64,000 nucleotides of DNA from Asanoa sp. WMMD1127 (lineage in GTDB: Bacteria > Actinomycetota > Actinomycetes > Mycobacteriales > Micromonosporaceae). The stretch is from NCBI RefSeq assembly GCF_029626225.1, contig NZ_JARUBP010000001.1, positions 310,001-374,000 on the forward strand. Direction: 5' to 3'. A model generated the notes under the pieces. The model searched no databases. It was not told where the DNA came from and saw only the letters and a list, made by a program, of their open reading frames with translations. Made by a program: the position numbers and the translations under genes. Below, one piece after another: positions 24,651-34,483 of the stretch (position 1 is the stretch's first letter; every line of letters begins with the position of its first letter).

Positions 24651-28513
<3,863 letters not shown>

Positions 28514-31735: not shown

Positions 31736-32524
31736 TCACACCGTACGGGATCCGCCTTGGGCGAGGCGGGAGATGTGCTCCCATGCTTCGAGACCGGCGA
31801 GACGGCCGGCGTACTCGGTGCGCACCTCGTCCAGTCCCTTGGTGCCGAAGAGCACTCGCAGCGGTGGGTTGGGCGCGTCGGCGAGGGCGAGCAGCGCGCG
31901 GCCGGTGGCTTCGGGGTCCCCGGGCTCGAAGCCGGAGCCGGCCACGCCGGTCCAGAGGGCTTCACGGGCGTGCGCGTACGCCGGGTCGGGGGTGGTCTGC
32001 GGCGAGGCGGCGATGAGGTCGGTGGGGAACATGACCGGTTCGATCAGCGTGACGTGGATGTCATACGCCGCGACCTCGGCGGCGAGCGCCTGGCTCATCG
32101 CTTCGAGTGCCCATTTCGAAGCCTGGTAGATGCCCAGCGTCGGGTGGGCGACCAGGCCTCCGAGGGAGGAGACCTGCATGATCCGGCCACGGCGGCGCCG
32201 GCGCATGCCGGGCAACACGGCTTGGGTCGTCCAGAGCGCGCCGAAATAGTTGACGTCCATCTGCGCGCGGGCCTGATCGGCGCCGACTTCCTCCACCGCG
32301 CCGACGAGCATGTGGCCGGCATTGTTGACCAGCAGGTCGATGCCGCCGAAGCGCCGCTCGGCCTGGTCGACGGCCGCGTCGACCGCGGCGCGGTCGGTGA
32401 CGTCGAGCGCGAGCGCCAGCACGCGGTCGCCGTAGCGGTCGACGAGCGGCTTCAGCGTTGCGGCGTCGCGGGCGACGGCGGCGAGGTTGTCGCCGCGGTC
32501 CAGGACGGCCCGCGCCCAGTGGGC
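31736..32524 (-). pseudogene. 5'-truncated SDR oxidoreductase
   Basis: An open frame from about 32524 down to 31736 reads WARAVLDRGDNLAAVARD, then LVDRYGDRVLALALDVTD, LLVNNAGHMLVG, SSLGGLVAHPTLG and IYQASKWALEAMSQ. All of this is diagnostic of SDR family enzymes, with the S-Y-K triad intact. The N-terminal beta strand and the TGASRGxGR cofactor loop are absent: reading upstream meets an in-frame TGA after a few codons with no start. The truncation point coincides with the truncated regulator on the other strand. A GTG at 32422 could start a shortened but cofactor-less protein. Confidence 0.75.
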
Positions 32525-32832
32525 GGGCCACGGTCACCCGCCGCGACGACGCCCGGGCCCGGTCACTGGTCTCGTTGCTGCTCGCCGACAGCGCGGAGTT
32601 CGCGGCGCTGTGGGACCTGCACGACGTCGCCGTCATGCGCCGTCGCCGGAAGCGGATCCGGCACCCGCAGGTCGGCCTGCTGGAGTTCGACTGCCAGTTC
32701 CTCGTCGACGAGGACCGATCGCAGATCCTCGCCCTCTTCTCACCGGTGCCAGGAAGCGCGACCGCCGAGCGACTCACCTTGCTCGCCCTCACCCACAGCC
32801 CAGCGCGGCCAGCGACCCTAACGGGTGAATGA
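32525..32832 (+). pseudogene. 5'-truncated XRE/MmyB-type transcriptional regulator
   Basis: The frame contains ARSLVSLLLADSAEFAALWDLHDVAVM and KRIRHPQVGLLEFDCQFLV, the C-terminal MmyB-like ligand-binding region of a large actinobacterial family of XRE regulators (about 280 residues). The HTH and the first two thirds are gone. In intact genomes these regulators are normally divergent from an SDR-type gene, exactly the relationship seen here with the truncated SDR at 31736-32524. One deletion explains both losses. Confidence 0.7.
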
Positions 32833-32877: not shown

Positions 32878-33276
32878 GTGTTGACCGATGGGCGGAACCG
32901 AGTGACTGTAGAGATCTCCATCGTCGATGGCGCTGTCGACGACCTCGAATCGCTTCACGAATGGCTCACCTCCGAAGATTCGCTCCGCGGGCGCGTCCAC
33001 AAGGGAGCGGTTGTTCCGGCGCCCGACGAGATGGGCGCCCTGTCCGACAGCCTCGTGGTGGCGCTGAGTTCGGGGGGTGCCGTCACCGCTTTCGCGAGCG
33101 CCGTGACGGCGTGGGCGCGGCACCGCGCGCCAAGAGTCAAGATCCGGGTCTCGGTGACGAGAACCGGCCGCACGGTGGAGGTCGACGCCAGCAACTTCGC
33201 CGACGCGCACCAGGTCATCGCCGAGGCACTGGGCAACGCCGACGGAGAACGAGCGGATGCGCCTGCCCAGGGCTGA
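32878..33276 (+). CDS. EACC1-type protein (effector-associated constant component)
   Basis: 132 residues; a GTG at 32902 giving MTVEISIV is a likely shorter start. The pattern VEISIVDGAVDDLESLHEWLTSED, RGRVHKGA, MGALSDSLVVALSSGGAVTAFASAV, KIRVSVTRTGRTVEVDASN matches EACC1. This small alpha/beta protein was described computationally in bacterial conflict systems, where it is encoded with caspase-like or STAND effectors. Its exact role is unproven; it may be an adaptor or sensor. A TAGACT box at 32855-32860 precedes the gene. Its 3' end overlaps the caspase gene by 20 bp. Confidence 0.75.
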   Translation: MLTDGRNRVTVEISIVDGAVDDLESLHEWLTSEDSLRGRVHKGAVVPAPDEMGALSDSLVVALSSGGAVTAFASAVTAWARHRAPRVKIRVSVTRTGRTVEVDASNFADAHQVIAEALGNADGERADAPAQG

Positions 33277-34483
33277 GGAGTCGCAGGTCGTGCTCATCGG
33301 CAGCGCCACCTATGACAGCGGCGCACTGCATGACCTGCCGGCGGTGACCAACAACCTGATCGACCTGTACGCGACGCTCACCGACCCGACGTTGTGCGGT
33401 CTTCGGACCGAGCACGCGCATTTCGTTCCGCAGCCCCGCCTGCCCGATGTCGGCATCACCATCGAGGTGGCGGCGCAGAAAGCGACCGACGTCCTGCTGG
33501 TCTACTACTCGGGTCACGGCATTCCGATGGATGGCGGCGAGCTCTACCTTGCGCTCGGCCAGACCATGCCGGAATACGTCGCGTACACCGCTCTCTCGTT
33601 CAGTCTGGTGCGCAAAGCGCTCGCGAACAGCCCGGCCCGGCACCGCATCCTGATCCTCGACTGTTGCTTCTCGGGACGTGCGATCGAGGCGATGGCGGAC
33701 CCGTCGTCCCTGGTCGCGGGGCAGACGGAGATCTCGGGCTCCTACACCCTCACCTCGGTCGGGAAGAACGTGACGGCCATCGCGAAGCCCGGCGAGCGGC
33801 ACACCGCGTTCACCGGAGCGCTCTTGGGTTTGTTGCGCAACGGGGTGGCCGGTGCGCCCGAGCTGCTGTCGCTGCGCGATCTGTACCGCTCGGTCCGACA
33901 CCACCAGCACGTGCGCGGCCTGCCCGAGCCGCAACAGCGAGGCACGGGGTTCACCGACGAGATAGCACTCGCCAGAAACGTCGCCAACTCGACCGTGCTC
34001 ACCAACTTCGGAAACCGGCATGAGCCAGTCGACGTCAGCGTCACCGACCTGACCGTGGAAGCCAGGGTGGTCATCCAGGACATGAGGCAGTTCGAGCGCG
34101 AGTTCAGGACCCGGCTGGTGGCCTTCTTCCAGCAACAACTTCGGCAGTTGCCGAGCGTCCGGCCGGCACCCGCGGGCCTGGAGCGGTTCGTTCACGAGTA
34201 CAAGATCCGCCTGACGGTCTTCCTGCAGGGCAGGATCACGGAAGCCGAGGGCTTCCGCATGCGGGAGGCCCGGCCGACCGACGATCGCCAACTGCAGCAG
34301 CTGCTCGAGTTCATCGACGAGTACAGGACTCGGCTGAAAGGTTTCCTCGTGCGGCTCCACCAGGACGTGGCTGATTACGAGCTGCCCGAGGTGCACGACG
34401 CCCGGTACTACACCCATTTCCTCTCGGAACACGTAGAGGCGCACCTCGCGCAGCAGCTGTCGCTGTTCACCGAGCCCGGCTAG
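33257..34483 (+). CDS. Caspase-like cysteine protease (peptidase C14) with a novel C-terminal helical domain
   Basis: 408 residues. Residues 8-250 are a caspase-family p20/p10-like domain: VVLIGSATYDSGALHDLPAV at the start, H87 in VYYSGHG, and the DCC-x-SG motif ILILDCCFSGRA with C137 as the expected nucleophile. TAFTGALLGLL is typical of the later core. Residues 260-408 are helical and carry three copies of F-x2-E-[FY]-x2-R-L-x2-F (279-291, 311-323, 352-364); no known domain is recognised. The start overlaps the EACC1 gene, so the two are co-translated. In related systems the caspase is the toxic effector released on phage or other insult. Confidence 0.85.
   Translation: MRLPRAEESQVVLIGSATYDSGALHDLPAVTNNLIDLYATLTDPTLCGLRTEHAHFVPQPRLPDVGITIEVAAQKATDVLLVYYSGHGIPMDGGELYLALGQTMPEYVAYTALSFSLVRKALANSPARHRILILDCCFSGRAIEAMADPSSLVAGQTEISGSYTLTSVGKNVTAIAKPGERHTAFTGALLGLLRNGVAGAPELLSLRDLYRSVRHHQHVRGLPEPQQRGTGFTDEIALARNVANSTVLTNFGNRHEPVDVSVTDLTVEARVVIQDMRQFEREFRTRLVAFFQQQLRQLPSVRPAPAGLERFVHEYKIRLTVFLQGRITEAEGFRMREARPTDDRQLQQLLEFIDEYRTRLKGFLVRLHQDVADYELPEVHDARYYTHFLSEHVEAHLAQQLSLFTEPG

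Follow-up and report, generated by a model that had tools for sequence, protein, structure and literature searches.

An EACC1-associated caspase of Asanoa sp. WMMD1127 with a tail of Wag31/DivIVA-like helices

The closest described system is the two-gene EACC1 conflict system, System 4 of Kaur et al. (2020), in which EACC1 is encoded by the 5′ gene, and the 3′ gene frequently encodes a caspase (PMC7159879). Up to 50 alternative C-terminal domains are reported there, STAND NTPases being one of them and EF-Tu and Clp-like domains being among the others named, and Table 1 of the paper associates the system with a multicellular habit. The authors predicted EACC1 to be a single, membrane-associated transmembrane helix and proposed that it acts as a sensor, the passages on the system giving no known trigger; they further took the variable C-terminal domains for effectors that the caspase would set free (PMC7159879). 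Neither DivIVA nor Wag31 occurs in the main text of that paper. As far as the searchable text of open-licence papers goes, we found no experiment on the EACC1 system.

The window, i. e. the whole stretch of 64,000 nucleotides analysed here (contig NZ_JARUBP010000001.1, positions 310,001 to 374,000; positions below are counted from its first letter), holds an actinobacterial gene pair of this design (NF047832 + PF19953), with an EACC1 5′ gene followed by a gene for an N-terminal caspase and a variable C-terminal region. Where it departs from that description is its tail of Wag31-like helices. The pair is thus a known kind of system; the Wag31-helix tail is new, and gives a concrete guess at function.

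The gene pair and its catalytic core

The features of the pair are the following.

32902..33276, + strand: EACC1 gene, matching PF19953; the ORF is also open from a GTG at 32878 (32878-33276)
33257-34483, + strand: caspase gene, second ORF, 408 residues, overlapping the EACC1 ORF by 20 bp
33257..33991, + strand: caspase core, residues 1-245 (NF047832); most of the homologues listed align to about residue 245, then diverge
33515..33517, + strand: catalytic His87 (SGHG) of the caspase protein
33665..33667, + strand: catalytic Cys137 (DCCFSG) of the caspase protein
33992..34480, + strand: variable C-terminal tail, residues 246-408, coding-like, with a GC content at third positions of 0.88

The initial annotation had described a small EACC1-like protein overlapping by 20 bp a caspase with an intact His87/Cys137 dyad, and had suggested profile searches as a check. 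Both ORFs were confirmed, and both products passed their profiles: the EACC1 protein matched PF19953 over residues 17-117 of 132 (E 1.8e-28, 99.1 bits, cut-off 23.6), and the caspase matched NF047832, “caspase, EACC1-associated type”, over residues 9-216 of 408 (233.8 bits, cut-off 140), as well as PF00656 (E 2e-9). Both catalytic residues are where they had been placed. In a 92-row caspase alignment every row has D135 and C137, and H87 falls in the class conserved at 90% or more. Searches of the whole genome gave three NF047832 matches, one caspase being over the cut-off, and a single EACC1 match at E 0.001.

The GTG at 32902 is the likelier start of EACC1, as judged from sequence, rather than that at 32878, since the equivalent position is an ATG in two relatives. 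An AlphaFold2 model of the protein, built from 4 sequences (pLDDT 75.6, pTM 0.69), has a ferredoxin-like order of elements. Its hydrophobic segment is modelled as strand 49-54 and helix 58-75 joined by a turn, instead of the one transmembrane helix of Kaur et al.; this predicted fold is a lead only. The 19-residue hydropathy is 1.66 in this EACC1, and reaches 1.6 or more in 48 of 70 EACC1 proteins. Foldseek and VIA searches with the model gave matches too weak to name any relative.

The two genes often lie together elsewhere. Caspase matches at 1e-10 were present in 202 of the 300 family genomes searched, weak ones among them not necessarily being of the EACC1 type. We examined 91 other loci, 29 of them from this family search, 60 picked from its matches, plus the two Amycolatopsis loci L073 and L074. 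EACC1 ended no more than 150 bp ahead of the caspase domain in at least 65 of the 91, and an EACC1 match anywhere in the flank was found for at least 71; these counts are lower bounds because the search for EACC1 reached only about 0.9-1.5 kb into the upstream flank, or 6 kb at L073 and L074.

Around the pair itself, a Pfam scan of 15 neighbouring ORFs between 24681 and 41847 (three without Pfam match, the large ORF 26882-28513 being left out) detected no STAND or other ATPase gene, in agreement with the initial annotation. From that absence the latter had proposed a minimal, self-contained anti-phage or suicide unit. The conflict-system part of the proposal holds, for a kind of system that was already curated and whose anti-phage or suicide role is predicted only; the minimal unit does not stand as a new inference, and the missing STAND gene is unremarkable, because Kaur et al. 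define the system by two genes, with STAND only one C-terminal alternative (PMC7159879). ORFs 24681-27113 and 26882-28513 are neighbouring secreted enzymes which both carry a near-identical ricin-type lectin stretch, seen by eye and, for the first, by Pfam.

Wag31-like helices in the tail of the caspase

What is new and unusual here, and went unreported in the initial annotation, is the tail of the caspase, which its sequence marks as Wag31/DivIVA-like. The end of the coiled coil of the Wag31/DivIVA encoded by the same genome, KQFEREYRTRLKAYLESQLRDL, is resembled by three stretches of the tail.

34085..34150, + strand: Wag31-like helix copy 1, residues 277-298, RQFEREFRTRLVAFFQQQLRQL, 35.7 bits with the Wag31 motif HMM
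34181..34246, + strand: Wag31-like helix copy 2, residues 309-330, ERFVHEYKIRLTVFLQGRITEA, 2.1 bits, recognised by its pattern and by lying between copies 1 and 3
34304..34369, + strand: Wag31-like helix copy 3, residues 350-371, LEFIDEYRTRLKGFLVRLHQDV, 14.8 bits with the Wag31 motif HMM

The HMM was built from 19 distinct Wag31 25-mers, and the best of 5000 shuffles of the tail reached 7.9 bits. Copies 1 and 3 are therefore significant, and copy 2, which is weak and below the best shuffles, is not significant alone. Over 22 positions, identity to the Wag31 of the same genome is 14/22 for copy 1, 10/22 for copy 3 and 6/22 for copy 2; copy 1 is also 14/22 identical to a coiled-coil relative encoded in this genome. 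That relative (L008, C1:4071428-4071760) is a 280-aa open frame with the Wag31 coiled-coil end and no recognised DivIVA domain.

Compared as a whole protein with the Wag31 profile NF050102, the caspase scored E 1.1e-6, with 28.8 bits against a cut-off of 260. The two proteins have in common the C-terminal hallmark helix, FEREYRTRLKAYLESQLRDL in the Wag31 of this genome, whereas the DivIVA N-domain is found in Wag31/DivIVA and is absent from the caspase (no match to PF05103).

To place the motif in the genome, a 14-row motif alignment was searched against all six frames at E up to 10. Wag31 (85 bits) and the coiled-coil relative (71 bits) were recovered, both being rows of the query. The caspase, which is no query row, came out at 47.4 bits (E 1.6e-11) with its copy 1 and at 15.7 bits (E 0.13) with its copy 3. 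Besides these, two weak places appeared, a DivIVA-domain protein at 15.9 bits and another at 12.8 bits. At the level of sequence, Wag31, the coiled-coil relative and the caspase are thus the only clear matches to the motif in this genome. Among 200 genomes of the order, the motif was present in 187, with a single match in 170 of these 187; mostly one match per genome is what is expected if each has one Wag31.

The rows of these profiles are mostly loci that were first found by the tail itself, so the Wag31 profiles lean towards the tail. Out of 29 loci that the tail found, 28 had a frame with one copy of the motif, and a rough pattern also picked out a DivIVA N-domain in 15 of the 28. Ten of the other 13 were tested, and all ten matched NF050102, with 103.7 to 351.8 bits, 4 of them over 260. 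The DivI1A domain was detected in 9 of the 10, the tenth (L067) being a frame that starts after that domain.

The whole tail, with residues 255-408 as query, was found in its own genome only, be it among 397 genomes of the order, 394 of the class or 6 of the genus. Any match to the tail at all was obtained in 76 of the 397 order genomes (at 0.001) and in 22 of the class genomes (at 3e-4). These partial matches cover at most about 70 of the 154 residues, most of them on copy 1 and a few elsewhere (for instance 74-124 and 56-125), and 5 of 9 class loci examined had no copy of the motif pattern. With the whole tail seen in one genome only, there is no conservation that would prove selection on it. 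No paper on a DivIVA-caspase fusion was found among the open-licence papers listed, judged by title or abstract opening.

One use of such a tail would be as a generic oligomerisation helix: the helical bundle would bring caspases together and have nothing to do with DivIVA in function. The tail is indeed predicted helical, at low confidence, with a fourth helix after the three Wag31-like ones, and the Wag31 coiled coil is itself self-associating (PMC12393619). We consider this reading quite improbable, as the motif is a specific one, with only the two further weak places in the genome at E up to 10.

Possible roles of the tail and the tails of other EACC1-caspases

Wag31/DivIVA governs polar growth, for which Wag31 is essential. 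The original paper on Fruitloop gp52, a mycobacteriophage protein, is by Ko and Hatfull. This protein has been reported to bind and interfere with Wag31 and to hamper superinfection by Rosebush, a phage that depends on DivIVA (PMC7474061; PMC11075535). The interactions tested for Wag31 are reported to require its C-terminal part (PMC12097788), and self-assembly to require the coiled coil, the DivIVA N-domain being a localisation module (PMC12393619).

We tentatively favour, at a little short of probable, a model in which the DivIVA-mimic tail serves as a docking site and bait at the growing pole. The three helices of the tail would copy the end of the Wag31 coiled-coil domain, which in mycobacteria and corynebacteria carries both partner binding and self-association. 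For this reason the tail would be expected to dock, at the growing tip, with the DivIVA assembly or with its partners. With three copies it could bind Wag31, its partners, or phage proteins seeking Wag31. EACC1 would restrain the caspase core, or sense with it. At the tip, the tail would act as bait for invaders that attack DivIVA, so that an invader binding, displacing or disrupting DivIVA would release the caspase, which would then cleave proteins of its own cell and so bring the infected cell to a halt. The model draws on the motif match, on the DivIVA parts joined to this kind of system, on Wag31 as a reported phage target and on a relative of the pair that lies between phage tail genes. 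Several facts count against a bait. Alanine substitutions across the middle and C-terminal parts of Wag31 are reported to leave growth like that of the wild type in most cases, with residues 210-213 appearing essential (PMC9878328), many EACC1-caspase tails are not DivIVA-like, and Kaur et al. read the tails as effectors (PMC7159879).

The other tails were compared. Of 92 tails including that of the window, the motif scan covered those of at least 20 residues, 10 being shorter; none of the 81 others scanned exceeded 5.0 bits with the Wag31 motif HMM. PF05103 (DivIVA) was matched at E up to 0.001 by 10 of the 92 EACC1-caspases. By eye, DivIVA N-domain tails were likewise ten, all in one genus, g12, which is not that of the window (e.g. 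L034, L100). L034 scored 26.7 against the Pfam cut-off of 28, just under it, and all 6 g12 tails tested scored above the cut-off of the DivI1A domain model, over three stretches in one of them and over two in each of the other five. The g12 proteins, with their tandem DivIVA N-domains, share with the window pair the two-gene design and a DivIVA-derived tail; theirs is the N-terminal domain, whereas the protein in the window has three copies of the C-terminal helix. EACC1-caspases thus carry two different parts of DivIVA.

These ten tails would fit an address as well as a bait. The tail may be an address label only, placing the caspase at poles or septa while EACC1 senses something else, a role for which the N-domain, as a localisation module (PMC12393619), would be apt, and which agrees with the predicted membrane association of EACC1 (PMC7159879). 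For the window we hold this to be a serious, if rather unlikely, alternative: its tail has no match to PF05103, the N-terminal domain that targets membrane and septum, and consists of three copies of the other end of DivIVA, repeats which would suit binding or bait at least equally.

Twenty tails were picked by hand for a separate Pfam scan. Host-like domains were found in four of the proteins: HSP70 (L073), the DnaJ C-domain (L024, L112) and BacA (L141). Other tails carried TIR, KAP NTPase, VWA with solute-binding (two), WD40, JAB, HATPase and helix-turn-helix domains, and 8 of the 20 had no Pfam match at 1e-5. The tails are thus a mixed bag.

L073 and L074, both of Amycolatopsis, have the EACC1-caspase followed by an HSP70 domain in one protein (668 bits with Pfam for L073; for L074 the tail was assigned by close sequence similarity to L073). 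By eye, a tail of about 130 residues (...SSVSSGFTTLWEKGRLDL...) recurs in L014, L015, L018, L019, L021, L022, L026, L028, L029, L030 and L039; that of L030 had no Pfam match at 1e-5.

This variety bears on the tail as an effector. Autoproteolysis would free the tail as a dominant-negative poison of the DivIVA/Wag31 network, and growth would stop. Released C-terminal effector domains are what Kaur et al. proposed (PMC7159879), and surplus Wag31 coiled coil could disturb the assembly. The HSP70, DnaJ C-domain and BacA tails have no obvious toxic use, and we regard the effector as doubtful.

Genomic setting and wider reading

The deletion scar and accessory surroundings ascribed to the locus in the initial annotation were compared with five genus relatives. 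The scar is real: a clean deletion at window 31739-32829, with its junction at about 32523, removed the 5′ ends of a divergent gene pair, a minus-strand SDR gene and a plus-strand MmyB-like regulator gene. At this site 4 of the 5 relatives hold some 690-700 bp, and in the fifth (G052) these two genes are affected by another, larger deletion. On both sides of the EACC1-caspase pair, parts of the genes match relatives at 72-94% at the DNA level (40 of 1314-1424 candidates scored per genome). No counterpart of the pair itself was found in the five by protein comparison, with all candidates scored; the best caspases had at most 46% identity, and the matches ended by residue 256. A DNA search with the pair gave one 66% match, which spans about 460 bp inside the caspase core, besides three that do not exceed 50 bp, and the absence at DNA level is not strict because 40 of 223-251 candidates were scored per genome.

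The caspase core was matched by 39 plasmid records. An IMG/VR contig (L141, 2532-4863) holds an EACC1-like ORF, named by alignment with EACC1 with no PF19953 score, and a caspase with the BacA tail, between two phage tail genes of the opposite strand; phrog_476, a major tail protein, flanks them on one side and phrog_123, a tail terminator, on the other. Because no counterpart was found in five genus relatives, because tails differ between genomes and because this relative lies inside a phage-like structural region, the pair behaves as an accessory one. The same three facts speak against a physiological protease, which would serve developmental cell death or growth arrest rather than act on invaders. 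The association of the EACC1 system with a multicellular habit (PMC7159879) and polar growth under DivIVA would be in keeping with such a role, which we nevertheless take to be very improbable.

There are plant NLR receptors with integrated decoys. By extension, EACC1-caspases might be bacterial death receptors with integrated decoys. Their tails would imitate central proteins of the host which phages target or make use of, and the caspase would be set off when such a copy is attacked; candidates among the tails compared here are the DivIVA N-domains, Wag31 helices, HSP70, DnaJ C-domains and BacA, to which the EF-Tu and Clp-like domains of Kaur et al. may be added. That of the window would be the Wag31 version. 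Of what a decoy would require, the copy of a host protein and its fusion to the caspase are seen in the window by motif profiles; binding by a protein of the invader would be the third element. What plant NLRs and this caspase would share is the idea that a receptor able to cause death carries the copy of a host protein; no homology between them is claimed, the likeness being a hypothesis. As a general account of EACC1-caspases the decoy is unlikely, and it would explain part of the tails.

A tail copied from a protein that a phage is reported to disable gives a specific guess at the trigger of an EACC1-caspase. If the decoy is true, the guard and decoy principle of plant immunity would extend to bacterial caspases; if the tail is an address label only, a bacterial caspase would still be tied to the machinery of polar growth.
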